From: Klebsiella variicola
GTDB lineage: Bacteria; Pseudomonadota; Gammaproteobacteria; Enterobacterales; Enterobacteriaceae
Length of the DNA: 64,000 bases
Direction of reading: 5' to 3'
Assembly (NCBI RefSeq): GCF_000828055.2
Contig: NZ_CP010523.2
Coordinates: forward strand, 1,302,001-1,366,000
A program made the position numbers and the translations under genes. The number at the start of each line of letters is the position of its first letter. The stretch's first letter is position 1. The notes below the pieces were generated by a model that worked only from the letters and a program-made list of their open reading frames with translations, was not told the origin of the DNA and made no database searches. Below are positions 3,092 to 54,346 of the stretch, piece after piece.

Positions 3092-3102
3092 GTGTCTGCC
3101 GA

Positions 3103-6360: not shown

Positions 6361-6999
6361 ATGAACAGAGTGAAACAATGCACCAGCGCGGCGTTTTTCA
6401 TGGTTTTATCATTTTCAGCCGCCGCGCATCCGCATAGCTTCATTAGTTTGCAGAGCGAGCCGGTGGTTAAAGACGGTCTGCTGAGCGGGTTTAAAATGCG
6501 CTGGACCATGGATGAAATTACCTCATCGGATCTGCTCTATGACGCCGGTAACGCCAAACCGGGCAGCGAAGTATGGAAAAAGCTGGCGGCTGAGGTGATG
6601 GCCAACGTACTCGGCCAGCACTATTTCAGCGAGCTGTGGCACAACGGCCAGCGGGTGAAATTTGAAAATCGTCCCGACGGCTATGGCCTCGAGCGTGACG
6701 GACTGCAGGCGGTACTGACCTTTACGCTGCCGCTGGCGACGCCGCAACCCGTTGTCGGGCAGACGTTTACCTTTTCCACCTTCGACCCGACCTACTACGT
6801 CGACATGTTTTATGACAAGGATAGCGATTTTTCCCTGCCCGCCGCGCTGCGGGCCGCCTGTAAGGCAACGGTGATGACGCCAAAACCGAACGACAAAATG
6901 CTCTCGTACGCTCAGTCGCTGGATAAAGCGGATGCGCCGCCGGAGGATATGGCGCTGGGCAGCTATTTTGCCCAGAAGGTGACCCTGACATGTCAGTAA
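6361..6999 (+). CDS. DUF1007 periplasmic protein, ZevA-like metal-system partner
   Basis: A 212-residue secreted protein. A signal peptide of about 22 residues ends AAA, leaving a mature N-terminus HPHSF, the histidine motif typical of DUF1007 proteins. The body carries DPTYYVDMFYDKDSDF, also characteristic. Its last codons overlap the start of the NicO-family gene by ten bases, so the two are translationally coupled. In Haemophilus the equivalent pair (ZevA/ZevB) is a zinc system with a periplasmic binder and a membrane transporter. A similar role, with zinc, nickel or cobalt, is inferred here. I see no clear Zur or NikR site upstream. The ribosome site is GTGAGGAAC. Confidence 0.85.
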   Translation: MNRVKQCTSAAFFMVLSFSAAAHPHSFISLQSEPVVKDGLLSGFKMRWTMDEITSSDLLYDAGNAKPGSEVWKKLAAEVMANVLGQHYFSELWHNGQRVKFENRPDGYGLERDGLQAVLTFTLPLATPQPVVGQTFTFSTFDPTYYVDMFYDKDSDFSLPAALRAACKATVMTPKPNDKMLSYAQSLDKADAPPEDMALGSYFAQKVTLTCQ

Positions 7000-7970
7000 T
7001 TTTCACCCCCCGCGCGCGATCCTCGCGCTGGAAAGCGCTGTGGCCGCTGGCGCTGTTGCTGGCTGTGAGCATCATCGGCGGCATTTGGCTATGGCGGGTG
7101 TGGCCGCAGGTGCTGATGCAGAGCGCGGTCTGGCAGCGCTCGTTGAATCTGGAACTCAGCCGCCTGCTGCAGGCGGTGGCGGAGAACCCGGCAACGGCGG
7201 GCCTGTCGCTGCTCGGGTTCAGTTTCGTTTATGGTGTAGTGCATGCCTTAGGGCCCGGCCATGGCAAAATTGTCATTACTACCTGGCTCGCCACCCATCC
7301 CTCGAAGCTGAAATCAAGCATTAACCTGACGCTGGCCGCCTCTTTATTACAGGGGCTGGTGGCCATCGCGCTGGTGGTCGTGGTGCTGGCGCTGCTGCAG
7401 CTGCCGGCGCGCCAGCTGCATCTCAGCAGTTTCTGGCTGGAGAAGGGCAGCTATCTGCTGGTGGGCGCATTAGGCTTGCTGCTGTGCTGGCGGGCGTTAA
7501 AAAAGCTGCGTCTGCTGCTGAGCCGGCCAACGTTTACCGCTTTTACCCCACATCATGTTCATCACGAGCATTGCGGCTGCGGGCATCAGCATCTCCCGGC
7601 GCCGGATCAGCTTCAGAGCGGCGACGACTGGCGGGCACGCGCCGCGATCGTCCTGTCGATGGGCATGCGCCCCTGCTCGGGAGCGATCATGGTGCTGCTG
7701 TTCAGCAAGGTGATCGGGGTGTTCAGTTGGGGAATGGCGGCGGCGCTGGCGATGGCGGCGGGAACCTCGTTGACCATCACGGCGCTGGCGCTGCTGGTGC
7801 ACAGTTTTCGCCAGCTGGCGGTGAAGTTGGGTCAGCATCAGGCGCCGCCGCTGTGGCGTCAGGTGGGCTGGCTGACGCTGGCGCTGGCCGGCGGCGTGAT
7901 TTTGCTGGCGGGGGCAGGAGTGATGTGGTTCACCGCAGTCCCGGCCGGCGGTGGGATCCGCCCGTTTTAG
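6990..7970 (+). CDS. NicO/RcnA-family divalent metal transporter, ZevB-like
   Basis: A 326-residue polytopic inner membrane protein of the NicO (RcnA/nickel-cobalt) family. An N-terminal membrane segment is followed by about six more. The signature HALGPGHGKIV is at about residues 86-96, a histidine-rich cytoplasmic loop (HHVHHEHCGCGHQH) lies near 185, and the second family motif MGMRPCSGA is near 220. Such proteins move Ni, Co or Zn ions. Direction and metal cannot be read from sequence. It overlaps the DUF1007 gene upstream and is followed 99 bases later by an uncharacterised membrane protein on the same strand, suggesting one functional cluster. Confidence 0.88.
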   Translation: MSVIFTPRARSSRWKALWPLALLLAVSIIGGIWLWRVWPQVLMQSAVWQRSLNLELSRLLQAVAENPATAGLSLLGFSFVYGVVHALGPGHGKIVITTWLATHPSKLKSSINLTLAASLLQGLVAIALVVVVLALLQLPARQLHLSSFWLEKGSYLLVGALGLLLCWRALKKLRLLLSRPTFTAFTPHHVHHEHCGCGHQHLPAPDQLQSGDDWRARAAIVLSMGMRPCSGAIMVLLFSKVIGVFSWGMAAALAMAAGTSLTITALALLVHSFRQLAVKLGQHQAPPLWRQVGWLTLALAGGVILLAGAGVMWFTAVPAGGGIRPF

Positions 7971-8069
7971 TCAGACGCCGGGCGCAAATCCGAAAGTGGG
8001 CGCCTGTGCTTGCCGCTGGCGAAGCGATGCTCTAGTTTTCCGCTTTTCGGCGGATGACAAGGAGTCGCT

Positions 8070-8915
8070 ATGGCCGCAAATATCGTTTCTTCCGCACCGA
8101 GCGGGCGGTTTTATTATGGCTGCGCCGGTGCCGCCGGTGCCGCCGGGCTGCTGGCGGGCCTGGCGATCGTCTACTGGTTTCCGGCGCTGGCCAGCTGGTG
8201 GCCGTCAGATCTGGTGCGCGTCTACCACGCCATGTCGTATGTCATGGGATTCGGGGTGTCGCGTATCGGGGATATCCCGCTGGTGGCCTACGCCACCTTA
8301 ACGCTGTCGGGTTTCGTCATGGCTTTTTGCCACCCCGGGCACAGTAAACTGCCCATTGTTGCCTGGGCTGTGCATAATCAGCCTTCGCCACGGGAGATGG
8401 TCGATTGGATCCTGCGCAGCTGGGTATTGCAGTTCGGTTTCCTGGTGATCATTTTCTGGCGTTTTGCTTTCATGGGGAAGCTGACCAGCTATCGGCTGAT
8501 GCAGTTCGTGGGCATCTTTAACGACGTCTGCTATCTGGCCACGCTGGTGCTGGCTGGGATACTGCTGCGCGATAGCTGGCGAGACTTTCAAGGCGTTTCC
8601 GCACCGGCAAGCAATATTCGCATTCCGCTGATCTTTGCCCTGAGCTTTTATCTGCCGTTTCAGCTGGTATGGATTTTACTCAGTGCGCAGCAGTTCGAGT
8701 TGCCGCTGTGGGGATGGCTGCTGCTGGTTCCGGCGATGGTCGGCGTGCTGTTAGCCCGCCTGGCGACAGTAGGAATAGCGTTGTGTTTCCGGCGCTGGCT
8801 GGGACCGCAGGGCTGCCTGCGCTGGCGCGGGCCGCTGGCCTTGTTTAGCGGCCTGACGGTACTGTGCATCGGCGGCAATGCGGTGATTCGCCAGATCCTC
8901 AACATGATAAAATGA
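8070..8915 (+). CDS. Uncharacterised polytopic membrane protein, paralogue A
   Basis: I do not recognise this family. The 281-residue protein has about seven or eight hydrophobic segments and a good ribosome site (AAGGAG, six bases before ATG). Notable motifs are GDIPLVAY, then CHPGHSKLPIVAWAVHN around residues 87-103, ILLRDSWRDF in the middle and LRWRGPLALFSG near the C-terminus. The protein encoded at 18846-19688 is collinear and shares all these landmarks, so the two are paralogues. The position just after the NicO-family gene, with the same strand and no terminator I can see between, suggests a link to metal transport. That is inference. Confidence 0.82.
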   Translation: MAANIVSSAPSGRFYYGCAGAAGAAGLLAGLAIVYWFPALASWWPSDLVRVYHAMSYVMGFGVSRIGDIPLVAYATLTLSGFVMAFCHPGHSKLPIVAWAVHNQPSPREMVDWILRSWVLQFGFLVIIFWRFAFMGKLTSYRLMQFVGIFNDVCYLATLVLAGILLRDSWRDFQGVSAPASNIRIPLIFALSFYLPFQLVWILLSAQQFELPLWGWLLLVPAMVGVLLARLATVGIALCFRRWLGPQGCLRWRGPLALFSGLTVLCIGGNAVIRQILNMIK

Positions 8916-8920
8916 CATAA

Positions 8921-8946
8921 AAAAAGGAAGCCGCGGCTTCCTTTTT
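8921..8946. terminator. Bidirectional terminator between paralogue A and suhB
   Basis: A near-perfect inverted repeat (AAAAAGGAAGCCG / CGGCTTCCTTTTT) between convergent genes, with A and T tracts on both flanks. Confidence 0.9.
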
Positions 8947-8961
8947 GACATCTGTAAGAGA

Positions 8962-9765
8962 TTAACGCTTCAGCGCATCGCTCAGCTGCTCACGCATATT
9001 CGCCAGCATCGCTTTCACCACGCGCGGGTTACCGGCAACGATGTTGCCCGTCAGCAGGTAGTTATGGCCACCGGTGAAGTCGCAGACAATCGCGCCAGCT
9101 TCACGGGCGATCAGCTCGCCTGCGGCGAAATCCCAAGGCTTCAGGGCGATCTCAAAGTAACCGTCAACGCGGCCGGCGGCTACATAGGCCAGATCCAGCG
9201 CGGCAGAGCCGGTGCGACGGAAGTCGGCACATTCGGTAAACATGTTGCCGAGAATATTCATGTAAGTGGTGGCGTGCTGCTTCGCTTTGAACGGGAAGCC
9301 GGTCGCGATGATGGTGCCGTCGAGGTCGCGAGCGTTGCTGCCGCGCAGACGGTAGCCGTTCAGCTGCGCGCCCTGGCCGCGGGTCGCGGTAAACAGTTCG
9401 TTACGCATCGGATCGTAAACCACCGCGACTTCAGTACGACCTTTGATGCGTACGGCGATGGAAACAGAGAAGTGGGGCAGACGTTTAACGAAGTTGGTGG
9501 TGCCATCCAGTGGATCGATAACCCATTGAACATCCTGCTCTTCACCAGCGTGTTCACCGCTTTCTTCGGTGATAATGGTGTGCTGCGGGTAAGATTTGCG
9601 AATGGTTTCGATAATAATCGCTTCAGCGGCTTTATCGACGTTGGTCACAAAATCATTGCTGCCTTTCTGGCTGGTTTCTACGGTGTCTGGCGTTTCGTAG
9701 TGCTTGGCAATTAAATTACCCGCCTTGCGCGCGGCGCGCACGGCGATGTTCAGCATCGGATGCAT
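8962..9765 (-). CDS. suhB: Inositol-1-monophosphatase / Nus factor SuhB
   Basis: A 267-residue member of the Mg2+-dependent, Li+-sensitive phosphatase family. In enterics SuhB also binds RNA polymerase and takes part in rRNA antitermination. The metal-site motifs are intact: ITEESGEH, WVIDPLDGTTNF and KPWDFAAGELIARE. The sequence is nearly identical to E. coli SuhB, which is 267 residues long. It is divergent from trmJ with a 120-base shared upstream region and convergent with the membrane protein at 8.1-8.9 kb. Confidence 0.97.
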   Translation of the reverse strand: MHPMLNIAVRAARKAGNLIAKHYETPDTVETSQKGSNDFVTNVDKAAEAIIIETIRKSYPQHTIITEESGEHAGEEQDVQWVIDPLDGTTNFVKRLPHFSVSIAVRIKGRTEVAVVYDPMRNELFTATRGQGAQLNGYRLRGSNARDLDGTIIATGFPFKAKQHATTYMNILGNMFTECADFRRTGSAALDLAYVAAGRVDGYFEIALKPWDFAAGELIAREAGAIVCDFTGGHNYLLTGNIVAGNPRVVKAMLANMREQLSDALKR

Positions 9766-9885
9766 CGGTCTCTCTCACTGGATGTTAAAGAACGGGAAAA
9801 AACGGCGCATATAATAACAGCGAAATCTGCTTATGTCTCCGTTTTATGGTAGCATGCCCGAATAATCTTTAGCCGAAGAACCATA

Positions 9886-10620
9886 ATGCTGCAAAATATT
9901 CGAATCGTACTGGTAGAAACCTCCCACACCGGCAATATGGGCTCTGTAGCCCGCGCGATGAAAACCATGGGCTTAACTAACCTGTGGCTGGTCAACCCAC
10001 TGGTCAAACCCGATTCACAGGCGATAGCCCTCGCCGCGGGCGCCAGCGATGTGATCGGCAACGCGCAGATCGTCGATACCCTTGATGAAGCCCTGGCGGG
10101 CTGCAGCCTGGTGGTGGGTACCAGCGCGCGCTCCCGCACACTGCCGTGGCCAATGCTCGATCCGCGCGAATGCGGCCTGAAAAGCGTCGCCGAGGGGCAG
10201 CATGCGCCGGTGGCGCTGGTCTTTGGCCGCGAACGCGTTGGCCTGACCAACGAAGAGCTGCAGAAGTGCCACTACCACGTGGCGATCGCCGCGAACCCGG
10301 AGTACAGCTCGTTGAACCTGGCGATGGCGGTGCAGGTTATCGCTTATGAAGTGCGGATGGCCTGGCTGGCGACGCAGGAGCAGGCGCAGCCTGCGGTTGA
10401 CCATGAAGAGGCGCCGTACCCGCTGGTGGACGATCTGGAGCGTTTCTACGGCCATCTTGAGCAGACGCTGCTGGCGACGGGCTTCATCCGCCCGAATCAT
10501 CCGGGGCAGGTGATGAACAAGCTGCGTCGTCTGTTCACCCGCGCGCGTCCGGAAAGTCAGGAGCTGAACATTCTGCGCGGCATGCTGGCGTCTATTGAGC
10601 AGCAGAATAAAGGTAAGTAA
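9886..10620 (+). CDS. trmJ: tRNA (Cm32/Um32) 2'-O-methyltransferase TrmJ
   Basis: A SPOUT-class methyltransferase of 244 residues that uses SAM to methylate the 2'-OH of nucleotide 32 in several tRNA anticodon loops. Knot-fold motifs are visible: [13 protein letters not shown] near the N-terminus, [15 protein letters not shown] in the centre and [15 protein letters not shown]. It lies directly upstream of the isc operon, as in E. coli, but the 250-base gap with its own IscR-controlled promoter and a REP element argues for separate transcription. Confidence 0.96.
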
Positions 10621-10630
10621 GCGCGTTAAC

Positions 10631-10711
10631 GCCGGATGGCGCTTCGCTTATCCGGCCTACGAATCTACATCTCTGTTGTAGCCCGGGCGAGGCCTTTGGC
10701 CGACCCCGGGA
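10631..10711. repeat. Pair of REP-like palindromes between trmJ and iscR
   Basis: The first unit, 10631-10658, has arms GCCGGAT and ATCCGGC. The second, 10681-10710, has outer arms CCCGGG and inner GGCC-TTT-GGCC. Together they form a small BIME-like cluster that probably protects or ends the trmJ transcript. Confidence 0.65.
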
Positions 10712-10745
10712 GCGGCTCGAAATTAATAACGGCACGGAAAGCCAA

Positions 10746-10795
10746 ATACCTGACTAAAACAGTCAAGTAAATAGTTGACCAAATTACTCGGGAAT
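10746..10795 (+). promoter_or_regulatory. Two tandem type-1 IscR boxes
   Basis: Two adjacent 25-bp sites, 10746-10770 and 10771-10795. The first reads ATACCTGACTAAAACAGTCA and onwards, an almost perfect dyad for the [2Fe-2S]-IscR consensus (CTGACT / AGTCA arms). The second is weaker (AGTTGACC / ACTCGGG). They lie directly upstream of the promoter, as in E. coli, where holo-IscR represses its own operon. Confidence 0.88.
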
Positions 10796-10802
10796 GTCAG
10801 AC

Positions 10803-10831
10803 TTGGCCCTGCTATGCAATACCCATATTAA
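10803..10831 (+). promoter_or_regulatory. isc operon promoter
   Basis: A -35 TTGGCC and a -10 TATTAA are separated by 17 bases immediately downstream of the IscR boxes. The E. coli iscR promoter has TTGACC at the equivalent place. Confidence 0.65.
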
Positions 10832-10872
10832 TAAAAAGCCCGGCCAGGGGCGAGTTTGAGGTTAAGTAAGAC

Positions 10873-11364
10873 ATGAGACTGACATCTAAAGGGCGTTATG
10901 CCGTGACCGCGATGCTTGACGTTGCGCTCAACTCTGAAACGGGCCCGGTGCCGTTGGCAGATATTTCAGAGCGTCAGGGAATTTCGCTTTCCTATCTGGA
11001 ACAGCTGTTCTCTCGCCTGCGTAAAAATGGCCTGGTTTCCAGCGTTCGTGGTCCAGGCGGTGGTTATCTGTTAGGTAAAGATGCCAGCAGCATCGCCGTC
11101 GGCGAAGTGATCAGCGCGGTAGACGAATCCGTTGACGCGACCCGTTGCCAGGGCAAAGGCGGCTGTCAGGGCGGCGATAAGTGCCTGACTCACGCGCTGT
11201 GGCGCGATTTGAGCGAACGCCTGACCGGCTTCCTGAACAATATCACCCTGGGTGAACTGGTGAATAACCAGGAGATCCTTGATGTGTCCGGCCGTCAGCA
11301 TCAGCACGAAACCCAGCGCAATGCGCGCACCCAGGACGCGATCAACGTTAAGCTGCGCGCCTGA
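10873..11364 (+). CDS. iscR: Fe-S cluster regulator IscR
   Basis: An Rrf2-family repressor/activator of 163 residues that carries a [2Fe-2S] cluster. It senses cluster supply and represses isc in its holo form. The winged helix-turn-helix occupies roughly residues 1-75. The cluster ligands Cys-92, Cys-98, Cys-104 and His-107 are all present ([16 protein letters not shown]). It is the first gene of the isc operon. A 179-base gap with a strong hairpin follows before iscS, matching the segment where the sRNA RyhB acts on E. coli iscRSUA mRNA. Confidence 0.98.
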
Positions 11365-11424: not shown

Positions 11425-11543
11425 AACGATTATAAAGAGCTTTCAGAATCAGGCCGGGATGCGCCAGCATTCCGTGTACTCGGTCGTACATCAAGCCGGT
11501 TGCCTGATTCCTTGCATTGAGTGATGTACGGAGTTTAAGAGCA

Positions 11544-31794: not shown

Positions 31795-32916
31795 ATGCAT
31801 AACCAGGCTCCGATTCAACGTAGAAAATCTAAACGTATTTACGTTGGTAATGTGCCAATTGGCGATGGGGCCCCCATCGCCGTCCAGTCAATGACCAATA
31901 CGCGTACCACCGATGTGGCCGCGACGGTAAGCCAAATCAAAGCGTTAGAGCGCGTCGGCGCGGACATCGTCCGCGTCTCTGTTCCGACGATGGATGCCGC
32001 CGAAGCGTTCAAACTGATCAAACAGCAGGTCAACGTCCCGCTGGTCGCCGATATCCATTTTGACTACCGTATCGCGCTGAAAGTCGCCGAATACGGTGTT
32101 GACTGCCTGCGTATCAACCCGGGCAACATCGGCAACGAAGAGCGCATTCGCACGGTTGTGGACTGCGCACGCGATAAAAACATTCCTATCCGCATCGGCG
32201 TCAACGCCGGCTCGCTGGAAAAAGATCTGCAGGAAAAATATGGCGAGCCGACGCCGCAGGCGCTGCTCGAATCGGCTATGCGCCACGTCGATCATCTCGA
32301 TCGCCTCAACTTCGATCAGTTTAAAGTCAGCGTTAAAGCCTCCGACGTCTTCCTGGCGGTAGAGTCTTATCGCCTGCTGGCGAAACAGATCGATCAGCCG
32401 CTGCATCTCGGGATCACCGAAGCGGGTGGGGCACGCAGCGGCGCGGTGAAGTCCGCGATCGGCCTGGGCCTGCTGTTATCCGAGGGGATCGGCGATACGC
32501 TGCGCGTCTCGCTGGCGGCGGATCCGGTGGAAGAGATCAAGGTCGGCTTCGATATCCTCAAGTCCCTGCGCATTCGTGCTCGCGGCATTAACTTCATTGC
32601 CTGCCCAACCTGCTCGCGTCAGGAGTTTGACGTTATCGGTACGGTCAACGCCCTGGAGCAGCGTCTGGAAGATATCATCACCCCGATGGATGTTTCGATC
32701 ATCGGCTGCGTGGTGAATGGTCCGGGCGAAGCGCTGGTCTCCACCCTCGGCGTGACCGGCGGCAACAAGAAAAGCGGCCTTTATGAAGACGGCGTGCGTA
32801 AAGATCGACTGGACAACGACGACATGATCGACCAGCTGGAAGCGCGTATTCGTGCCAAAGCCTCGATGCTCGATGAAGCCCGTCGTATTGACGTTCAACA
32901 GCTTGAAGCAAAATAA
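31795..32916 (+). CDS. ispG: HMBPP synthase IspG
   Basis: A [4Fe-4S] enzyme of 373 residues that converts 2-C-methyl-D-erythritol 2,4-cyclodiphosphate to HMBPP in the non-mevalonate isoprenoid pathway. Cluster ligands lie in [11 protein letters not shown] and [14 protein letters not shown]. The N-terminal TIM-barrel region starts [19 protein letters not shown]. It lies 26 bases after rodZ, likely in one operon, with hairpins between it and hisS. Confidence 0.97.
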
Positions 32917-32922
32917 CGTGTT

Positions 32923-32986
32923 GGGAAGCGATACGCTTCCCGTGTATGATTGAACCTGCGGGCGCAAGGCGCCGGGGTTCATTTTT
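32923..32986 (+). terminator. Two hairpins between ispG and hisS
   Basis: GGGAAGCG-ATA-CGCTTCCC (32923-32941) is followed by a longer stem TGAACC...GGTTCA with inner GGCGC-AAG-GCGCC (32951-32981) and TTTTTG. The second has the look of an intrinsic terminator or attenuator. A TATGAT (32945-32950) between them could be a hisS -10. Confidence 0.6.
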
Positions 32987-33007
32987 GTATATATAAAGAG
33001 AATAAAC

Positions 33008-42250: not shown

Positions 42251-43828
42251 ATGACGGAAAACATTCATAAACATCGCATTCTCATCCTCGACTTCGGCTC
42301 TCAGTATACTCAGCTGGTGGCGCGTCGCGTGCGTGAGCTGGGCGTCTACTGTGAGCTGTGGGCGTGGGATGTCACAGAAGCACAGATCCGCGAATTCAAT
42401 CCAAGCGGCATCATTCTTTCCGGCGGCCCGGAAAGTACTACCGAAGAGAACAGCCCGCGCGCGCCGCAGTATGTGTTTGAAGCCGGCGTGCCGGTATTTG
42501 GCGTCTGCTACGGCATGCAGACCATGGCGATGCAGCTGGGCGGCCATGTGGAAGGTTCTAACGAGCGTGAGTTTGGCTACGCGCAGGTTGAAGTGGTTAA
42601 CGACAGCGCGCTGGTGCGCGGTATCGAAGACTCCCTGACCGCGGACGGCAAACCGTTGCTGGACGTGTGGATGAGCCACGGCGACAAAGTCACCTCCATC
42701 CCGTCTGACTTCGTCACCGTCGCCAGCACCGACAACTGCCCGTTCGCCATTATGGCCAACGAAGAAAAACGCTTCTACGGCGTGCAGTTCCACCCGGAAG
42801 TGACCCACACCCGTCAGGGGATGCGTATGCTGGAGCGCTTCGTGCGCGACATCTGCCAGTGTGAAGCCCTGTGGACCCCGGCGAAAATCATCGACGACGC
42901 CGTCGAGCGTATCCGCCAGCAGGTTGGCGATGACAAAGTGATCCTTGGCCTCTCCGGCGGCGTGGACTCTTCGGTGACCGCGATGTTGCTGCACCGCGCC
43001 ATCGGCAAAAACCTGACCTGCGTATTCGTGGATAACGGTCTCCTGCGTCTGAATGAAGCGCAGCAGGTGATGGACATGTTTGGCGACCACTTTGGCCTGA
43101 ACATTGTTCACGTTGAAGGCGAGCAGCGCTTCCTCGACGCGCTGAAAGGCGAGAACGATCCGGAAGCGAAACGTAAAATCATCGGCCGCGTCTTCGTGGA
43201 AGTGTTCGACGAAGAAGCGCTGAAGCTGGACGACGTCAAATGGCTGGCGCAGGGTACCATCTACCCTGACGTTATCGAGTCTGCCGCTTCCGCTACCGGT
43301 AAAGCACACGTCATTAAATCTCACCACAACGTGGGCGGCCTGCCGAAAGAGATGAAGATGGGGCTGGTTGAGCCGCTGCGTGAGCTGTTCAAAGACGAAG
43401 TGCGTAAGATCGGTCTGGAACTGGGCCTGCCGTACGATATGCTCTACCGTCACCCGTTCCCGGGCCCGGGCCTCGGCGTGCGCGTGCTGGGCGAAGTGAA
43501 GAAAGAGTACTGCGACCTGCTGCGTCGTGCGGACGCTATCTTCATCGAAGAGCTGCACAAAGCTGACCTGTACAACAAAGTGAGTCAGGCGTTTACCGTG
43601 TTCCTGCCGGTTCGTTCCGTCGGCGTGATGGGCGATGGCCGTAAATACGACTGGGTCGTTTCCCTGCGCGCAGTGGAAACCATCGACTTTATGACCGCGC
43701 ACTGGGCGCACCTGCCGTATGATTTCCTCGGCCGCGTCTCTAACCGTATCATCAATGAAGTGAACGGTATCTCCCGCGTGGTGTATGACATCAGCGGTAA
43801 GCCGCCAGCAACGATTGAGTGGGAATGA
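42251..43828 (+). CDS. guaA: GMP synthase (glutamine-hydrolysing)
   Basis: A 525-residue two-domain enzyme that converts XMP to GMP. The class I amidotransferase domain has the nucleophile in [12 protein letters not shown] and the His/Glu pair in VQFHPEVTH. The ATP-pyrophosphatase domain has the loop [11 protein letters not shown], and the dimerisation domain ends PPATIEWE. It lies 67 bases after guaB. The last 12 bases, GAGTGGGAATGA, coincide with a well-known integration site for genomic islands, and foreign genes indeed follow. Confidence 0.98.
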
Positions 43829-43874
43829 TTTCGCGTCTGGCAACAGCCTGCACGTAAAAGCAGTAAAGTACTCT

Positions 43875-43900
43875 AAGCCCGCGTAACTGCGGGCTTTTTT
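43875..43900 (+). terminator. Terminator after guaA
   Basis: AAGCCCGC-GTAACT-GCGGGCTT followed by six T residues in total. It marks the last clearly native sequence before the foreign segment. Confidence 0.92.
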
Positions 43901-44079
43901 GTTTTTATGTCTGGCACTTTCTGGCAGCTGTTAGCAACGGGAAGCACGGTTTTTTCAATGGAATTTTTGATGGTACTCTCTGGTTTTGAATTTTGATCTC
44001 TTCCCTGAAAACAGTGCCAGGGTCACCTTGCTGGTGTGGATTTCACGGTGCTCACGAGAGTGCTACCAGTTGGCCGCCA

Positions 44080-44317
44080 AGCCCAGGGAGCGCGGCCTGT
44101 AGTATCTGGAAAACCTGACGCTGCTGATCGAAAGTACTTCAGGGAACACCAGCGCATCATGCCCGAAGCCAAGGGCAACCTGATCTACACCTCGTTGACG
44201 GTTGGCCAGGTCGCCGACAGCCTGGGGGGCGCCGAGCAGGCTTACTTCTCACGGTTCTTCAAGCGCACCACGGACCTGACCCTAAAGGCGTTTCGCCTTC
44301 AGCGCCGGGAAATCTAG
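44080..44317 (+). pseudogene. AraC-family regulator remnant (C-terminal HTH)
   Basis: The readable frame gives a segment typical of the second helix-turn-helix of AraC/XylS proteins: SLTVGQVADSLGGAEQAYFS, then RFFKRTTDLTLKAFRLQRRE. Upstream, GKPDAADRKYFREHQR resembles an earlier part of the same family in a shifted frame, and the first HTH between them seems deleted. There is no start codon with a ribosome site and no N-terminal effector domain. It is probably the broken regulator of an ancestral aromatic cluster. The preceding 180 bases (43901-44079) show nothing I can identify. Confidence 0.7.
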
Positions 44318-45222
44318 CCTTCGCTCAACTTCACCAGGCTGAACAGCATCTCCAGCACCGGCGTGGCGACGCCCAGGCGCTTGCCACGTTCGACCACCGC
44401 GCCATTGATGAAATCGATCTCGGTTTTGCGACCTGCCTCGACATCCTGCAGCATCGACGGTTTGTGCTGCTGGTGATGGCGAAAGGCATAGTCGACAGCA
44501 GCGATAACCCGCCGCTGATCAGCATCAACGCCAGCAGCCTGGGCAACCGCCACGGTTTCGCTGACGATGCGGGAGGTCACCTGCCGTCCCTCTTCAGCGT
44601 GGCCGATCGCGCCCACGGTCCGGCGGGTCACCGCGCAAACCGAATTGAGCGCTGCGTTGAACGCCACCTTCTCCCAGATCGACACCTGCACCTGCGGATC
44701 GGCCTCGCACGGCAAACCGGCCTGGCTAAAATTCGCCGCGATTTCGTGCACGGTCGGGCTGTCCTTACCATTGCCTGCCCAGATATTGATGTGCCCTTCG
44801 CCGTGGCTGTGCACCACGCCAGGCGCGACAAGGTCTGCCGGCAAGTTGGTCATGCCGACGATGATGCGCTCGGCCGGAACCACGCGGGCGATGAGCTCGG
44901 CATTGCCCAGCCCGTTCTGCACCGAAAGCGCCCAAGTCTGCGGCCCCACCAGGTGGCGCACTGACTCGATGGCGGCGGCGGTATGAAACCCCTTGGTAAA
45001 GATCACCAGCAGGTCGAAGTGGCCTGTCACTTGGTGTGCACGAGAGATTGGCACCCAGACGCTTTCCTGTACGTCAGGCGTCTCCAGGCGCAAGCCCTGG
45101 CGAGAGATGACCTCGATGGTCGTCTCCGACGCCTCGACGAAAGACACGTCCTGTCCAGCCAAGGCCAGGCGCGCACCAAACAGTCCGCCCATCGCCCCTG
45201 CGCCCACTATTGCAATTTTCAT
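44314..45222 (-). CDS. Ketopantoate reductase-like protein (PanE/ApbA family)
   Basis: A 302-residue NADPH-dependent 2-keto-acid reductase homologue. The Rossmann motif VGAGAMGGLFGARLALAG is at the N-terminus. The catalytic-lysine region SIWEKVAFNAALNSVCAVTR lies near residue 170, and the C-terminal DVEAGRKTEIDFINGAVVE is also diagnostic. GGAGC lies before the ATG at 45222. The genuine panE of a Klebsiella lies elsewhere, so this copy is accessory. In an aryl-glyoxylate cluster it may reduce a 2-keto acid other than ketopantoate, which is inference. Its 3' end touches the AraC remnant, and its 5' side borders a broken porin. Confidence 0.85.
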   Translation of the reverse strand: MKIAIVGAGAMGGLFGARLALAGQDVSFVEASETTIEVISRQGLRLETPDVQESVWVPISRAHQVTGHFDLLVIFTKGFHTAAAIESVRHLVGPQTWALSVQNGLGNAELIARVVPAERIIVGMTNLPADLVAPGVVHSHGEGHINIWAGNGKDSPTVHEIAANFSQAGLPCEADPQVQVSIWEKVAFNAALNSVCAVTRRTVGAIGHAEEGRQVTSRIVSETVAVAQAAGVDADQRRVIAAVDYAFRHHQQHKPSMLQDVEAGRKTEIDFINGAVVERGKRLGVATPVLEMLFSLVKLSEG

Positions 45223-45269
45223 CGCTGCTCCTTCGAGTAAATGAATGGCCACTTCAGGAAGCCATTCTC

Positions 45270-45550
45270 TGTCTCACAAATAAATGCGTACCCGGCAAAA
45301 CATAAATGCCGTCTATGTCCTGAGGCATTGCACCACCGCTGACCCACGCCATGCCCGCCGATTGTCAGGGTGGTCATGGCGCCGTAACTCTTGTTGTCGA
45401 TATCGCCATACAACGCTTTGCCGTCTTCACGGTTCTGGGAGTGGCGCAACTCGGTCTGCAGCGAGTAGCCGGTCGACAAGACGGACGGTTGGACAAGTCC
45501 AGGTAATGCTGCTGATAAATGTCCTCGATCTGGCCGTAGAAATCAGAAGA
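45270..45550 (-). pseudogene. OprD-family porin remnant, frameshifted
   Basis: Two pieces in different frames read SDFYGQIEDIYQQHYLDLSN and then STGYSLQTELRHSQNREDGK, followed by ALYGDIDNKSYGAMTTLTIG. These match the OprD substrate-specific porin family of pseudomonads, which take up aromatic and amino acids. The start, signal peptide and most barrel strands are missing. It lies on the same strand between the aldehyde dehydrogenase and the PanE-like gene, where a porin would fit a catabolic operon. Enterobacteria normally lack OprD, so this is evidence of transfer followed by decay. Confidence 0.72.
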
Positions 45551-45611
45551 ATCACGGCGTCAGTGGATTCGCAGGACCAGGCGCAAGCCGGAAGGGACCT
45601 GCGCCAGTGTG

Positions 45612-47090
45612 CTAGAACGGGTATTTGCGTGGTGTCATCTGCACGCTGATCCAGTGATCGGTGGTGAATTCCTCGATTGCCCACTCACCGTTGAAACGCC
45701 CCAGCCCCGAGTTCTTCTCACCGCCAAAGGGAGCGTGCGCCTCGTCGTTGACCGGAATGTCGTTCACATGGGTCATGCCAGCCTTGATTCGACGCGCGAA
45801 ACGCGCGCCGCGCTCCAGGTCGGCAGTGAATACGGCGCTAGATAGCCCGAACTCACTGTCGTTCGCTAGCGCCAGCGCGTGGGCCTCATCTCGCGCGCGC
45901 TGAATGCCGACCAGCGGGCCGAAAATTTCCTCGCGGGTGATCTCCATTTCTGCCGTCACATCGGCGAACACGTGAGGCGGCAGCAGTTGCCCACGCACGT
46001 CACCTTCGACGACCGGACGGGCACCCTCCTCCCTGGCCCGCGCCACCTTGCTCAGCAACGTGTCCAGTTGCTTGCGGTTGATGATCGGCCCGACCACGGT
46101 ATCCGGCTCGCTGGGGTCGCCCACCTTCAACGCCTTGACCCTTTCGGCATAGCGCTCGACGAAGCGGTCATACAGTGCGTCCTCGACGATGATGCGGTTG
46201 ATCGCCATGCAGATCTGCCCCTGGTGCAGGAACTTGCCCATCACCGCCGCTGCTACCGCCTGCTCCAGGTCGGCATCGGCCAGCACCACGAACGGGCTGT
46301 TGCCGCCCAGCTCCAGTGCCACGTGCTTGAGGTGCTTGCCACCGCTGGCGATACGGCCAATGTTGGCGCCCACAGGGGTCGAGCCCGTGAAGGAGATGAA
46401 TTTGGGTACCGGATGCTCGACGAACGCATCACCAATCTCGGCACCAGAGCCGACCAGCACGCTAATCACGCCTGCCGGAACGCCAGCTTCCTCGAAGATG
46501 CGCGCGGCCAGCAGGCCGCCCGTCACGGGGGTATCGCTCGCGGGCTTGATCACCACGGCATTGCCCAGGGCCAATGCTGGTGCCACCGAACGCTGGGTGA
46601 GGTGGAGCGGGAAGTTCCATGGGCTGATCACCCCCACCACACCCAGCGGCTCTCGGTAAACGCGATTTTCCTTGCCCGGGACGTTGGACGGCAGAATGCG
46701 CCCGTACACCCGCGCCGGAAAAGAGGCTGACTCAAGGGTGATGCTGCGCGCAGCGCCCCACTCGATTTGCGCCTTGATGCGGGTACTGCCCGACTCGCGG
46801 ATGATCCAGCCGATGATCTCCTCGCGACGCTCATCGAAGATCTGCACCGCACGGTGCAGGATGGCAGAGCGCTGCCCCGGTCCTATCATCGCCCACTCGA
46901 CCTGGGCGCGCTGCGCGGTCTGATAGGCTTCGTCCAGGTCATCGCGGGTAGCCTGCTTGATCTGCAGCAGGGTTTCTCCGTTGTACGGATCGCTGACCTG
47001 CAGTGATTGCGGCGCACTGCCTTCACGCCATGCGCCGGCAATCGGCAGCAGGTGAAGATCGCGATACGGCGTGTGATTGACTTGACTCAC
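45612..47090 (-). CDS. Aromatic aldehyde dehydrogenase (benzaldehyde/vanillin type)
   Basis: A 492-residue NAD(P)-dependent aldehyde dehydrogenase. Family motifs are all present: [14 protein letters not shown] for cofactor binding, [13 protein letters not shown], the general-base Glu in [12 protein letters not shown], and the nucleophile Cys in GQICMAINR. The C-terminal MTPRKYPF is typical of the benzaldehyde and vanillin dehydrogenase group. It starts with GTG behind AAAGGAG. With benzoylformate decarboxylase upstream in the same direction, its natural role is most likely to oxidise the aryl aldehyde product to the aryl carboxylate. Confidence 0.88.
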
Positions 47091-47124
47091 GGAATATCTC
47101 CTTTATCAGTATTGGGCACGTTGT

Positions 47125-48459
47125 TCAGTGATGGGTGTCTGCCGGCTGGGCATTCAAGCCCACGCTGGCAACGTCCCTTCTTTTGATCATGGCAATGGCG
47201 AAAATCGCCACCAATCCGGGGACTGCGCAGAGAATGAAATTGAGCTGCAGTGGCAGGTTTATGCTCAGCATCAGGCCGCCCATTGCCGGGCCAGCCACGG
47301 CCCCGAAACGGCCAATTGCCGAACACCAACTCACGCCCGTCGCACGGATCTCGCTCGGGTACTGCTGTGCAGCGAAGGCATGGATGACGGCCAGGGTGCC
47401 GATGGTGGTGGCACCGGCGATCAGCAACATGGCGTTGAGCAACAGCGGGCCAGGCTTGATACCCAGCGTGCAGAGTGAGATCACCGCCAGCAGGAAGAAC
47501 AGTATCAACGTGGGCTTGCAGCCCCAGCGATCGGCGAGCCAGCCACCACCCAGGGCGCCGAAGGTGGCGCCAATGTTCAAGGTCACAAGGAACATCAGGC
47601 TCGAACCCAGCGGGAAGCCACCGGCGACCATGATCTTCGGCAGCCAGGTATTGAGCCCATAGACCATCAGCATGCACATGCCAAACCCCAGCCACAGGAA
47701 CACCGTACCCACGCCACGTCCTTCGGTGAACAGACGCGACAACGGTGCCGCGCTCGAAGTGCGTACGGGCGCATCGAAACGTACCTGGTCAGCGTTGACG
47801 GCGGGATCGATGCGTTTGAGCAGCGCACTGGCCGCGGCCTTGTCCTTTTTCAGCAGGAAGTTCAGCGACTCGGGCAGTTGGCGGTACATCCACGGCAGGA
47901 ACAGCAGCGGGATGCCGCCCACCAGAAACGTTGCCTCCCATCCAAAGCGAGGAATGATAAACATGGCTACCAGAGCCGAAAAAATTGCCCCGATCGAGTA
48001 GAAGCTGAGCATGATGGTGGTCATTCGGCTGCGACGTGCTTTCGGTGTCAGGTCATTCATCAACGCGACGATGTTGGGGATCGCCCCGCCCAACCCGACG
48101 CCGGTGACGAAACGCAGAGTTGCGAAACTCTCCGCATCCCAGGCCCACGCGGTACCCAGCGTGCAAACACTGGCCAGCGTCATGGCGCTGAGAATAACTT
48201 TGCGCCGTCCCAGGCGATCTGCTAGCGGGCCGATGACGACAGCGCCGAACATCATGCCGAACAGCGCGGCACTGCCCATCCAGCCGGCAATGACCGGAGT
48301 CAATGCCCAATGCTCCATCAATTGCGGCACGACAGAGCCGTAGATGACCAGGTCATAGCCATCGAACAGCATGATGAAGGAACACCAGAACAGTAGGGTA
48401 TAGTGGAGTTTTCCAAGCGGAGCGGAGCCCGCGACATCCAAGGCACGTCGTTGAGTCAT
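47125..48459 (-). CDS. Aromatic acid:H+ symporter (AAHS family, MFS)
   Basis: A 444-residue twelve-helix transporter. AAHS hallmarks are the charged motif FDGYDLVIYGSVVPQLM in helix 1 and GPLADRLGRRKVILSAM between helices 2 and 3, as in PcaK and BenK. It lies between the decarboxylase and aldehyde dehydrogenase genes on the same strand, with gaps of 70 and 34 bases, so a common operon is likely. It would import the aromatic acid or keto-acid substrate. Exact specificity is not readable. Confidence 0.88.
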   Translation of the reverse strand: MTQRRALDVAGSAPLGKLHYTLLFWCSFIMLFDGYDLVIYGSVVPQLMEHWALTPVIAGWMGSAALFGMMFGAVVIGPLADRLGRRKVILSAMTLASVCTLGTAWAWDAESFATLRFVTGVGLGGAIPNIVALMNDLTPKARRSRMTTIMLSFYSIGAIFSALVAMFIIPRFGWEATFLVGGIPLLFLPWMYRQLPESLNFLLKKDKAAASALLKRIDPAVNADQVRFDAPVRTSSAAPLSRLFTEGRGVGTVFLWLGFGMCMLMVYGLNTWLPKIMVAGGFPLGSSLMFLVTLNIGATFGALGGGWLADRWGCKPTLILFFLLAVISLCTLGIKPGPLLLNAMLLIAGATTIGTLAVIHAFAAQQYPSEIRATGVSWCSAIGRFGAVAGPAMGGLMLSINLPLQLNFILCAVPGLVAIFAIAMIKRRDVASVGLNAQPADTHH

Positions 48460-48529
48460 TGTTGTATCTCTTATTGTTGTTATCGAGATTAGTGAGCGAG
48501 GCGCGGGCGGCGACCACGTTCACATGAGG

Positions 48530-50218
<1,689 letters not shown>

Positions 50219-50238
50219 ATACAACTGGAGATTAGCCA

Positions 50239-51144
50239 ATGGCCGGTTTCGACCTCAACCTGATCACGACTTTCGTCACGCTTTATGAAACCCAGAGTGT
50301 CACCGTGGCTGCCGAGCGACTCTGCGTAACTCAGCCATCAGTGAGCTATGCATTGGCCAAACTCAGGGAACAGTTCGATGACGCCTTATTCGTACGTAAC
50401 CAACAAGGCATGCAACCTACGCGGTTGGCTACTCAGCTCTATGAGGGATTCAAGGAAGCCAGCCGTAGCATCAATGATGCCGTTTCCGAGGCACGCAAAT
50501 TTTCCCCATCAACCTCAAAGCGACGTTTTCGTCTTGCCTTGTCGGATTTGGGCGAAATTGCGTTGCTGCCAAGAGTGCTCGAACGTCTCAACCAGATGGC
50601 GCCCAGTATCGAGCTTGACATCGTGCCGCTTGAGATCGACCAGGTCGCAACATGGCTGAACGATGGGCATATCGACGCGGCTATCTGTAGTCAGATATTG
50701 CCGGGGGCCGGCATTACCCACCAAAGGCTGATGAGCGAGCAATACTGTTGCCTGGTCGATGACGCTCATCCACGTATTGGCACGCAGATGAATATGCAGC
50801 AATTTCTCGCCGAACCCCATGCAATTGTCACCCGAACATCCGGCCATGGCATGGTAGAAGACGTCCTGAAAAAAATGGCCGTCGAGCGCCGAGTGCGGCT
50901 ACGCATCCCACATTTTTCGGTACTGCCAAAGATCATCCCCGGGACCGAGATGATCACTATCTTGCCCTATCGCATTGCCTGGAGCTTTTGCGAATTTCCA
51001 GGAGATAAGCCATTGAAAGTCGTCGATCTACCTTTCGAGGTACCATCTTTCGAAGTGACCCTGCACTGGCATTCGCGAAGTGAAAAATCCACTTCGCTGA
51101 AGTGGTTCTGCGAGCAGATTGAGGCTGCACTTGGTGAGCCTTAA
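50239..51144 (+). CDS. LysR-family regulator of the aromatic operon
   Basis: A 301-residue LysR protein. The N-terminal winged helix holds VTVAAERLCVTQPSVSYALA, and the rest is a periplasmic-binding-fold effector domain. Overall it resembles the NahR/NodD branch, which often senses aromatic acids. It is transcribed away from mdlC across a 119-base spacer with two T-N11-A motifs, so it very likely controls the decarboxylase operon. It is intact, with a GGAG ribosome site. Confidence 0.88.
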   Translation: MAGFDLNLITTFVTLYETQSVTVAAERLCVTQPSVSYALAKLREQFDDALFVRNQQGMQPTRLATQLYEGFKEASRSINDAVSEARKFSPSTSKRRFRLALSDLGEIALLPRVLERLNQMAPSIELDIVPLEIDQVATWLNDGHIDAAICSQILPGAGITHQRLMSEQYCCLVDDAHPRIGTQMNMQQFLAEPHAIVTRTSGHGMVEDVLKKMAVERRVRLRIPHFSVLPKIIPGTEMITILPYRIAWSFCEFPGDKPLKVVDLPFEVPSFEVTLHWHSRSEKSTSLKWFCEQIEAALGEP

Positions 51145-51213
51145 GACCGCTACCGGCAGATTCTGTTGAAAAAGTAGCGGCCTCTCCGTGCCGACGGCAG
51201 AATCACTCTGTCG

Positions 51214-51455
51214 GTGAACGCGGGGACGAACAGCATGATGGGACCGCTACCGGGTGGACGGCGGCGCCTGTTCTACTCGTTCAATCTGGAAGACCATGTC
51301 CCAGTCCAACACCTCCTGCGCAGTATCGACCAGTGTCTGGTCTGCGTGATCTACTCAGCTACCTTGCGGATTTCTACAGCTCCATCGGACGCTCCTCGAT
51401 CGACCCAAAGTTGATGATGCGGATGCTGGTCATTGGCTACTGCTACGTGGGCGAT
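51214..51455 (+). mobile_element. Transposase remnant, IS1182-like
   Basis: In one frame MMGPLPGGRRRLFYSFNLED, then HVPVQHLLRSID; in the next frame DLLSYLADFYSSIGRSSIDP, then KLMMRMLVIGYCY. Together they match the N-terminal part of an IS5/IS1182-type transposase, interrupted by a frameshift near 51340. The catalytic domain is missing. The sequence just upstream (TTCTGTTGAAAAAG at about 51160) may be part of the element's left end. The IS is dead, but it marks past mobility at the island's right side. Confidence 0.7.
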
Positions 51456-51458
51456 CGC

Positions 51459-51899
51459 TAATGGCGACAGGGATTTGTCCCGCGCAGCTCTCTCCGTTCT
51501 GGCAAAGGTAGCAGTCGTAATATCGCAAGATTTAAAGCGCTTAATCGATGACCCTGCTGTCGTTACTTTGCCCCGCCACGAAGCATACCGCAGCAATCTT
51601 GATTACCAGCGGCTTAGGCGCTGATGCCGTGAAAGTCGCAAGATCGTTATCGTTTACCAGGATAGAAACGGTGTCGAGACGCAGCGTACCGTCTGGCCGT
51701 TCATGATGGGCTTATGTCACAGGAGCGCAAGTGGTGATCGTATGGTGTGAACTGCGTGAAGACTTTAGGGTATTGCGAGACGAGCGGATCAAGGTCGTCA
51801 AGTTTTGTGAGATGCAATACCCAGTCCTCAGAGCCGTACTACGTAGAGACTGGATGCAGCGTCAAGCGCTGTTGGCAGTTCAGACAGGCTCTCAAAAGT
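51459..51899 (+). pseudogene. WYL-domain (YafY-like) regulator remnant
   Basis: Three consecutive pieces in different frames look like one protein: GDRDLSRAALSVLAKVAVVI (continuing SQDLKRLIDDPAV), CRESRKIVIVYQDRNGVETQ (continuing RTVWPFMMG) and CELREDFRVLRDERIKVVKF (continuing CEMQYPVLRAVLRRDWMQRQ). This is the middle and WYL domain of a YafY-type transcriptional regulator with at least two frameshifts. The N-terminal HTH is missing, and the remnant joins directly onto the transposase remnant. The following 130 bases (51900-52030) contain no gene. Confidence 0.7.
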
Positions 51900-52030
51900 G
51901 ATGTTGATCCTTTATGGTATTTGTCATGGTTTTAAAGTTTTTCGTGCCTTGTAGGCTTCGGATTTACTGGTCTGTGCGGGGCTATTGATAATAGAGTGGG
52001 AGTCATCCCCGGTGTTAGCTGAATGAAACG

Positions 52031-52059
52031 AAACCCTCTGTTTTTACAGAGGGTTTTTT
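52031..52059 (+). terminator. Terminator at the right edge of the island
   Basis: AAACCCTCTG-TTTTTA-CAGAGGGTTT followed by TTTA. It would end plus-strand transcripts. Native-looking genes resume beyond it. Confidence 0.85.
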
Positions 52060-52074
52060 ACTTTAGACATCCCT

Positions 52075-53373
52075 TCAATCCCGTCGTCCCAGAAGGTTAT
52101 CTGGCAGGGTGAGGTTTCCCTGTGAATTCCCCGTTTGCGGTTCCGGCAGATGTTCAGCTGGCCCATTTTTTGCCGCCGCCGTGCGGAGCGCGGAAAGTTT
52201 ACCCGGCTGTACCGTGCCCGCCCCGCGCACCATCGCCAGCGCCAGTCCGGCAACGATCAACGTTAACCCGGTGGACACCCACATTCCGCCGATAATGCCC
52301 AGCCGGTGGTTCAGCCATGCGTAGGCAAAGGGTGAGGCAGCCGCCATCAGTTGCCCGGGGATTAGCAGGATACCGGTGCGGCAGGCATAGCTTTCTGCGC
52401 TAAACAGCGCCAGCGGTAGCGTTGCTTTGACAATCGTCACCAGCCCGTTAATCGCGCCATAGCCCAGCACAAACCCGGCTGCGCATCCGGCATAAGCCGT
52501 GCTGCTCAATCCAAGGAGAAAACAGAGCGGCATGGCGAGCGCGGTAAAACGCGTCAGCGTGAGTGGGGTGACCCGGGGACCGGCCAGCACTTCCCCCAGC
52601 CGGGCGCCGGTCTGGCCGAATCCCCACAGCATACCGACGGCAACCGGCAGACCAAAGTGGCTGATAAACTCCGGCAGATGGGTGGAGGTGCCGTTAGAGA
52701 TGAAGGTGATCAGCGCAATAAAGATCGCGTAACGCACTCCGTTACGCCGATCGCCCTCTGCTGTCGTCGTTGGGGCTATCATTTTCACCGATGTACTGAG
52801 TCGCTGGCGTGGCAACTGATAATTCAGACAGGCGCTCAGCAGGCCAAAAAGCGCATAGATCCGCAGGGCATCCTGCCAGGACATGACGGTTAATAACGCC
52901 TCGCCCAGCGGCCAGAAGAGGGCAGAGGCCAGACCGCCAGCGAGAGTGATATGAGAGATAGTTTTCCGCGCCTGCTGACCGTACAGATTCACCACTGCGG
53001 CGAACAGCGCATCATACAGCGAGAGCCGCATGCCGATGCCGGTCAGCAGCCAGGCGCCGTACCAGCCGGCCAGCGAAGGGCGCCAGGCCATCATGGCGCA
53101 GCTGGCGGCTATCAGTAAGGTTCCGCTGGTGACCACCAGCCTTCCGCCAAAGCGAGCCAGCAGCCTGGCAACGAACGGAGAAACAGCGGCCATCATCAGC
53201 ATGGCGAGCGTCAGGCCGAGATAGATCTGCGGCAAGGACCATCCTTTGTCGGCGGCGATAGCCCCGGCAAAGGTGCCGGGCATATAAAAAGAGATCCCCC
53301 AGTTGATCAGTTGCTGACCACCCGCGGTGAAGGCGAGCCGTCGGGGAATAGCGCGTGTTTCCATGGTTTTCAT
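52075..53373 (-). CDS. MFS transporter, substrate unknown
   Basis: A 432-residue major facilitator protein with about twelve membrane helices (for example LTLAMLMMAAVSPFVARLLA and YAGCAAGFVLGYGAINGLV) and a polar C-terminal tail. Starts at 53373 or 53364 are equally possible (MKTMET). It is divergent from a LysR regulator 88 bases away, a classic regulator-transporter pair. It occupies the place of yfgH-yfgI in E. coli. I cannot assign a substrate. Confidence 0.82.
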   Translation of the reverse strand: MKTMETRAIPRRLAFTAGGQQLINWGISFYMPGTFAGAIAADKGWSLPQIYLGLTLAMLMMAAVSPFVARLLARFGGRLVVTSGTLLIAASCAMMAWRPSLAGWYGAWLLTGIGMRLSLYDALFAAVVNLYGQQARKTISHITLAGGLASALFWPLGEALLTVMSWQDALRIYALFGLLSACLNYQLPRQRLSTSVKMIAPTTTAEGDRRNGVRYAIFIALITFISNGTSTHLPEFISHFGLPVAVGMLWGFGQTGARLGEVLAGPRVTPLTLTRFTALAMPLCFLLGLSSTAYAGCAAGFVLGYGAINGLVTIVKATLPLALFSAESYACRTGILLIPGQLMAAASPFAYAWLNHRLGIIGGMWVSTGLTLIVAGLALAMVRGAGTVQPGKLSALRTAAAKNGPAEHLPEPQTGNSQGNLTLPDNLLGRRD

Positions 53374-53461
53374 TCCGTTAAGGCAGTTGTCCTGAGCATA
53401 CCCGGCAGGCTATTGTTCTGGCAGAGCGGCCACCTTATGCGCGGTATAAGAGAAACTTTGT

Positions 53462-54346
53462 ATGACAACACTGAACCTGGGAAACCTGGCGACCTTCCGG
53501 CTGGTCGTACAGCGCGGCAGCTTTTCTGCCGCCGCCGACGCGCTGGGGATCTCCCAACCTGCCGTTAGCCTGCAGGTGCGTCAGCTGGAGCAGTTTTTAC
53601 AGACCCGTTTGCTGGAGCGTACCGGCCGCGGGATCAAGGCGACGGCGGCGGGAATGGCACTGCTGGCCCACAGCGAGCAGATCGATCGGGCGGTGAATAG
53701 CGCAATGCAGTCGGTCAGTGTATTCAGTCAGGAAGTTAATGGGGCGGTAACGCTGGGGACCGGCGCGACGGCCTGCATTCATCTTCTCCCGCCGCTGCTG
53801 CAGCATCTTCGTCAGCAGCATCCGCTGTTGACGGTGGGGGTGACCACCGGCAACACGCTGGATATCGTCCGGGCGGTGGAGGAAAATCGCCTCGATCTCG
53901 GGCTGGTTACCTTGCCCGTACAGGGGCGCAGTCTGGCGGTGACCTCAGTGGTTGACGAGGAGTTCGTGGTTATCCATGCCAGTCACGAGACGGGGACGCT
54001 GGCGGATTATACTCCTGCAGAACTGCTGGCGCTGCCGCTCATTGCCTTCGAAGCCGGCAGCGGCACCCGGGATCTGATTGACCGCTGGTTCCGCTCGGCG
54101 GGAGTGGCGGTCACGCCGGTGATGCAGTTGGGCAGCATCGAGGCGATTAAACGGATGGTGCGGGCAGGGCTGGGCTACAGCATCGTGCCCCGCATGGCGG
54201 TGGAGCAGGAGAAGGATCGCGACGGATTAAGCGTGCACTCGCTGGCGCCGCGGCTATATCGACAGCTGGCGGTAGTCATGCGTCAGGACAAAATTGTGAC
54301 AAAAGGTATCGCGGAAATGCTGCGCCTGCTGCATGCCGTGCGCTGA
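53462..54346 (+). CDS. LysR-family regulator, divergent from MFS gene
   Basis: A 294-residue LysR protein with an N-terminal winged helix (FSAADALGISQPAVSLQVR) and a full effector domain (LPPLLQHLRQQHPLLTVGV onwards). It most resembles the CysB/CynR-like group by eye. It probably controls the divergent transporter gene. The effector is unknown. Confidence 0.85.
   Translation: MTTLNLGNLATFRLVVQRGSFSAAADALGISQPAVSLQVRQLEQFLQTRLLERTGRGIKATAAGMALLAHSEQIDRAVNSAMQSVSVFSQEVNGAVTLGTGATACIHLLPPLLQHLRQQHPLLTVGVTTGNTLDIVRAVEENRLDLGLVTLPVQGRSLAVTSVVDEEFVVIHASHETGTLADYTPAELLALPLIAFEAGSGTRDLIDRWFRSAGVAVTPVMQLGSIEAIKRMVRAGLGYSIVPRMAVEQEKDRDGLSVHSLAPRLYRQLAVVMRQDKIVTKGIAEMLRLLHAVR

Follow-up and report, generated by a model that had tools for sequence, protein, structure and literature searches.

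The closest described counterpart of the locus discussed here is the bzfRABCD cluster of Pseudomonas sp. LLC-1, in which genes for a LysR regulator, benzoylformate decarboxylase (BFDC), a major facilitator superfamily (MFS) transporter and an aldehyde dehydrogenase (ALDH) are followed by one for an OprD porin. As passages of PMC7760541 describe, bzfABCD converts benzoylformate to benzoate in E. coli, and LLC-1 itself, which has no mandelate genes, grows on benzoylformate and shows no growth on mandelate. The 3' end of guaA, in turn, is a known integration site with the core GAGTGGGA, found at the same place in guaA-integrating elements such as GIsul2 (the relevant parts of PMC9376610). Herein, we describe a locus of Klebsiella variicola where these two themes meet: in a 64,000-nucleotide stretch of contig NZ_CP010523.2 (the window), an island of about 8.2 kb with five intact genes and several relics lies to the right of the guaA stop codon (43828). 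Unlike GIsul2-type elements, this island has catabolic cargo and no remaining integrase.

We consider it probable, at roughly two chances in three, that the island represents a bzf cluster of Pseudomonas type at guaA, enclosed by two GAGTGGGA cores and with a predicted route leading from D-mandelate through benzoylformate and benzaldehyde to benzoate. The bzf cluster itself is already known; the variant with a predicted mandelate dehydrogenase in the guaA site of Klebsiella appears to be new here, and no description of this island was found in the open-licence literature searched. If true, such a scenario would correct a misleading 2-dehydropantoate 2-reductase annotation for enzymes near BFDC in 18 of 37 loci and would add a way into the mandelate route that takes one step and needs no racemase. 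It would also mean that Klebsiella obtained a catabolic pathway for plant-defence compounds from Pseudomonas, the porin being lost in the process, and would offer a testable reason for some Klebsiella living on cyanogenic plants.

The Benzoylformate Gene Set

A divergent LysR gene and the genes for BFDC, the MFS transporter (of AAHS type) and ALDH stand in the same order as in bzfRABCD (Table 1). Unlike in LLC-1, the Klebsiella set is located at guaA, its OprD is merely a relic, with no intact porin gene after ALDH, and an intact dehydrogenase of the ketopantoate reductase (KPR) family follows. As OprD is present in pieces only, we file the island as a bzf variant and not as a complete cluster. 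On the minus strand, the genes for BFDC, AAHS, ALDH and the PanE-like reductase are separated by gaps of 70, 34 and 389 bp, the last of which holds the OprD relic: 87 aa at 53% and 22 aa at 77% identity, that is, about 109 of the 438 residues of the porin, in pieces. The OprD gene has probably decayed because the general porins of enteric bacteria make it unnecessary.

BFDC aligns over its full length with solved benzoylformate decarboxylases (757.6 bits to 1bfd) and retains residues S26, E47, H70, H281, A460, L461 and F464, which we take to be the active-site set of the P. putida enzyme. Given this strong homology, it would split benzoylformate into CO2 and benzaldehyde, which ALDH, a homologue of BzfC, would oxidise to benzoate, while the AAHS symporter would import mandelate or benzoylformate. 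Benzoate could then be degraded by host ben and cat genes: catB, catA and benD scored above family cut-offs in the same genome and benA just under, and benB and benC were recognised by reading the list of open reading frames (ORFs). The motif ATTTGATCGAT, located between lysR and the decarboxylase gene, also precedes BFDC in 24 of 37 loci (11 exact and 13 with one mismatch, five of these loci having defined the motif). Since it does so both in the window and in these loci, a LysR operator was likely carried along with the cluster, and the regulator would likely sense benzoylformate through it.

An initial annotation of the window had described about 8 kb of genes after guaA that encode the same five intact families, amid relics of an OprD porin, an AraC regulator and a transposase. 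ORFs and family searches agree with this gene content, and all three relics were recovered; the import, decarboxylation and oxidation route proposed there is the known bzf route, as passages of PMC7760541 present it.

A Candidate D-Mandelate Dehydrogenase

The same annotation held that the set lacks mandelate enzymes. This is probably wrong, because the sequence of the PanE-like protein is nearest to D-mandelate dehydrogenases (159.1 and 149.5 bits vs 64.5 for E. coli KPR, PanE). In the comparison of predicted folds, D-mandelate dehydrogenases and archaeal ketopantoate reductases tie. Across 20 aligned rows, K185 and E268 are invariant; we take them to be the conserved Lys and Glu of the family, with the functional roles that these have. 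The position after strand 2 is E or D in 20/20 rows, as in the aligned D-mandelate dehydrogenases, which suggests NAD as the cofactor. From sequence and fold together, we predict that the protein is an NAD-dependent D-mandelate dehydrogenase producing benzoylformate, and its automatic name, 2-dehydropantoate 2-reductase, is likely a misnaming. Its start was placed at an ATG; an alternative GTG at 45252 adds 10 residues, and 302 aa is the length given for P0121, the database cluster nearest to it.

KPR-family D-mandelate dehydrogenases are represented by the structures 3wfi, presumably from Enterococcus, and 8wl1 (Lactobacillus brevis), from which the Klebsiella protein, with its predicted activity, differs by the adjoining benzoylformate gene set. 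A KPR-family gene was found in 13 of 18 Pseudomonas BFDC loci and near BFDC in 18/37 loci overall. The mdl pathway of P. putida shares benzoylformate decarboxylase and an aldehyde dehydrogenase with the island, but the latter has neither a racemase nor a flavin mononucleotide (FMN)-type (S)-mandelate dehydrogenase, and the KPR-family enzyme would take the D form directly. Family searches assigned none of the five intact island genes to the mandelate racemase family, and none of the five PF01070 (FMN-type enzyme) matches in the genome falls in the island; the window contains one of them, which lies in guaB. Mutual exclusion of the KPR gene and the FMN-type enzyme across loci was considered and dropped as not significant.

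Probable Integration at guaA

The 8-mer GAGTGGGA occurs three times in the window (1.42 expected), and two of these copies bracket the island, so that a duplicated core encloses the element at the 3' end of guaA. The right copy is embedded in AATAGAGTGGGAGTCAT, which closely resembles the guaA end of genome G014, AATAGAGTGGGAATGAT. Such a topology is likely to reflect insertion by a guaA-specific integrase, since lost. No integrase was found among the ORFs and pieces scanned, although not every small ORF was scanned; an intact one is not expected in the remaining DNA, because the relics leave too little room for it outside the five genes. With the integrase gone, present mobility is not claimed.

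Among 20 same-genus genomes, this one included, guaA is present in all, and the DNA following it is of several types. The hairpin to the right of the island directly follows guaA in 8/20 of them, with other terminators in 12/20; because of this, the hairpin is most likely the former terminator of guaA, now cut off from it by the island. The terminator close to guaA, which the initial annotation had taken as the left border, belongs to the inserted DNA. In genome G013, both ends match those of the island (up to 43992 on the left, 51989-52049 on the right), but the cargo is different and the right core is altered. Overall, the content of the guaA site varies, the island being one of its occupants.

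Reading of the ORF lists gave a view of two other occupants. At the guaA site of G013 (L088, G013:C1:1426500-1445000, ~2804-10209), there are ATPase-like, transposase, sulfatase-like and radical-SAM maturase-like genes, while in G019 (L089, G019:C1:4006000-4024000, from 2305) phage-like genes directly follow guaA, the first ORF being integrase-like. An MFS/LysR pair to the right of the island (52075-54346) is matched downstream of guaA in several genomes of the genus; among named protein matches, its MFS protein is 93% identical to that of K. quasipneumoniae and 89% to that of K. pneumoniae, with two unnamed ones nearer at 95-96%. It was not matched in G013 and G019, the closest two by guaA, save for short LysR fragments in G013. 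As the pair lacks a counterpart in these two genomes, the variable region exceeds the island.

Origin and Distribution

The island is a variant bzf cluster that was acquired horizontally, and the closest relatives found are in Pseudomonas. Its BFDC shares 86-90% identity with the enzymes of P. bharatica CSV86, P. parafulva, P. cremoricolorata, P. frederiksbergensis DM22 and P. sp. T1-3-2; in 32 further loci, identity is at most 76%. In trees built from homologues in BFDC loci, enteric paralogues not being part of them, BFDC and the PanE-like protein are placed next to the CSV86/parafulva/cremoricolorata group (support 88/80 and 99/96), and LysR is at the base of the five closest Pseudomonas (100/100). 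AAHS groups with four of these five (100/100), the fifth copy being frame-broken and left out. ALDH falls with Pseudomonas rows (94/96) with no finer placement among them, its best match being DM22 (86%). DNA identity over BFDC and AAHS to CSV86, parafulva and cremoricolorata is 80-81%, and because of this value we assume either that the donor was an unsampled relative or that the transfer was not recent.

In the enteric family, 392 genomes gave 13 BFDC matches at 1e-80, namely this genome and 12 at 42-45% identity. A close BFDC is absent from 19/19 other same-genus genomes, and no second carrier was found at E <= 1e-200 in a class sample of 274 genomes. The nearest database clusters hold 184 (BFDC) and 243 (PanE-like) member sequences, which suggests that more than one isolate carries these genes. 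In E. coli, some match was obtained in 430 of 5426 genomes, and in none does any place cover 80% of the query; of 443 records, the 20 listed all hit the IS1182 piece. Plasmid carriage was considered and rejected: none of 789 matching plasmid records covers 80% of the island, and the 30 listed match the IS1182 piece alone, at 82-84% identity. BFDC searched against plasmids gave 44 records at E <= 1e-100, the best-ranked 65.6% identical.

As for the remaining claims of the initial annotation, the absence of these genes at this locus in E. coli is borne out by the counts above, and cross-family transfer from Pseudomonas agrees with all five trees and with the single close decarboxylase among the 392 genomes. 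The acquisition, which it had called unusual, is so between species, but the sizes of the two clusters suggest more than one isolate. The comparison of composition with the flanks that it had proposed is uninformative on transfer, because the cluster resembles them except for LysR, and was dropped as proof. Four island genes have a GC content of 0.60-0.64 (third codon positions, GC3, 0.75-0.78), six flanking genes 0.53-0.63 (GC3 0.66-0.75), and LysR alone deviates (GC 0.53, GC3 0.59).

Alternative Explanations

An unlikely alternative, yet the one to be taken most seriously, is that of an ordinary bzf cluster acting on benzoylformate or 4-hydroxybenzoylformate released from lignin, in which the PanE-like gene is a passenger or serves another 2-oxoacid. 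The growth pattern of LLC-1 would fit it, as would the Pf-5 enzyme, which acts on both compounds according to the discussion of PMC7760541, and in 5/18 Pseudomonas BFDC loci the fetched stretch lacks a KPR homologue. However, the gene is there in the other 13 and is intact in Klebsiella, whereas OprD and AraC have decayed, and the protein itself is nearest to D-mandelate dehydrogenases by sequence. Far less probable is a reductase running in reverse, from surplus aromatic 2-oxoacids to D-hydroxyacids, or serving as a spare ketopantoate reductase for pantothenate: TIGR00745 is above its cut-off and archaeal enzymes tie in fold, but the gene shares strand and order with the catabolic set, the residue after strand 2 is acidic throughout, and the match to E. 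coli PanE is weak.

We give hardly any credence to the idea that these are old Klebsiella genes lost from most lineages and not acquired. Base composition and codon use like those of the flanks (LysR excepted) and the populous database clusters might be read that way, but the cores on both sides, the 19 same-genus genomes with no close BFDC and the grouping of the proteins with Pseudomonas all speak against it.

A Second Locus and Cyanogenic Glucosides

The gene set may be half of a longer pathway. In P. fluorescens EBC191, mandelate-pathway genes lie near a nitrilase gene and are thought to allow the use of plant mandelonitrile, according to the review PMC8955678, which cites Kiziak 2005 for this locus. 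The Klebsiella genome likewise pairs a nitrilase with predicted mandelate genes; unlike in EBC191, the host is an enteric and about 2 Mb of DNA separate the two halves, with OprB and GH3 on the nitrilase side. This second locus, L115 (G000:C1:3356000-3375000), contains genes for AraC, OprB, GH3, a membrane transporter and a nitrilase. Compared with DM22, GH3 is 64-68% and OprB 57-59% identical, and the nitrilase is 58-62% identical to Pseudomonas nitrilases; its best solved match is NitA 6zby (420.5 bits), presumably the enzyme of P. fluorescens EBC191.

Three of the five closest Pseudomonas loci (CSV86, T1-3-2 and DM22) have a nitrilase gene alongside the cluster. One 32.8-kb contig of DM22 has amidase, OprB, LysR/BFDC-AAHS-ALDH-OprD-KPR, AraC, OprB, GH3 and nitrilase genes in a row. 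Such a nitrilase occurs in 3/18 Pseudomonas BFDC genomes, each with a copy at the cluster, and T1-3-2 has a second elsewhere. As such genes sit together in Pseudomonas loci, L115 might supply mandelate from aromatic cyanogenic glucosides, e.g., prunasin and amygdalin. Prunasin carries (R)-mandelonitrile, which the nitrilase would convert to D-mandelate, the form used by D-mandelate dehydrogenase. We propose a mandelonitrile-glucoside (prunasin/amygdalin) pathway divided between two loci, with the island plausibly forming its lower half. A GH3 glycosidase, a nitrilase and benzoylformate genes, the substrates of each being inferred, do occur in this one genome. Only tentatively, and at somewhat less than even odds, do we suppose a complete feeding route from two accessory loci: OprB, a GH3 beta-glucosidase and the nitrilase would yield D-mandelate, the guaA island would carry it to benzoate, ben/cat would finish, and a KPR-fold dehydrogenase would replace the racemase/FMN pair. 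If this split pathway is true, a defence poison would be both a carbon and a nitrogen source for an enteric.

The GH3 gene and a 58% nitrilase were found in 2/20 same-genus genomes (G000 and G008), the island only in G000, the present genome. In G008 (L117, G008:C32:40000-58000), homologues of amidase, AraC, OprB, GH3 and nitrilase are together, with no close benzoylformate decarboxylase. In T1-3-2, the second nitrilase gene is found apart from the benzoylformate cluster and is accompanied by a divergent AraC gene (L119, G449:C1:3925000-3943000, 9199-11221). A LysR operator linking the island to L115 was considered and rejected: there are two one-mismatch matches, of which one falls within the OprB gene itself and the other, at 3502, is not part of that operon.

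Feature Coordinates

Table 1. Features of the guaA island and its borders (positions in the window).
Feature	Position	Strand	Remark
attL-like core GAGTGGGA within guaA 3' end	43817-43824	+	matches guaA integration core in parts of PMC9376610
Left end of inserted DNA	43830-43992	.	terminator ~43875-43900 inside; common to genome G013, 95.9%
AraC-family regulator relic, C-terminal helix-turn-helix	44036-44317	+	beside reductase gene, as in Pseudomonas
PanE/ApbA-type (KPR-family) reductase, predicted NAD-dependent D-mandelate dehydrogenase, 302 aa from ATG	44314-45222	-	TIGR00745 262.1 bits, cut-off 141.35
OprD-family porin relic, bzfD position	45252-45541	-	pieces matching 438-aa porin
ALDH, predicted benzaldehyde dehydrogenase, bzfC-type, 492 aa	45612-47090	-	PF00171
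AAHS-type MFS transporter, bzfB-type, 444 aa	47125-48459	-	TIGR00895 337.9 bits, below cut-off 418.55
BFDC, bzfA-type, 529 aa	48530-50119	-	NF005485 812.8 bits, cut-off 493
Operator-like ATTTGATCGAT	50173-50183	-	~54 bp before decarboxylase start
LysR regulator, bzfR-type, divergent, 301 aa	50239-51144	+	ORF and family search
IS1182-family transposase relic	51145-51445	+	plasmid and E. coli DNA matches
WYL-like relic split over two frames	51625-51898	+	neither half reaches the Pfam cut-off
attR-like core GAGTGGGA in guaA-3'-end-like stretch	51994-52001	+	
Hairpin and T-run	~52031-52059	+	right of island, here ~8.2 kb from guaA

The DNA match to loci L022 and L023 extends from the reductase gene into the AraC relic. 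Elsewhere in the window, Rfam matches were obtained for an iscRS element and sroE RNA (11433-11542 and 32913-32988).

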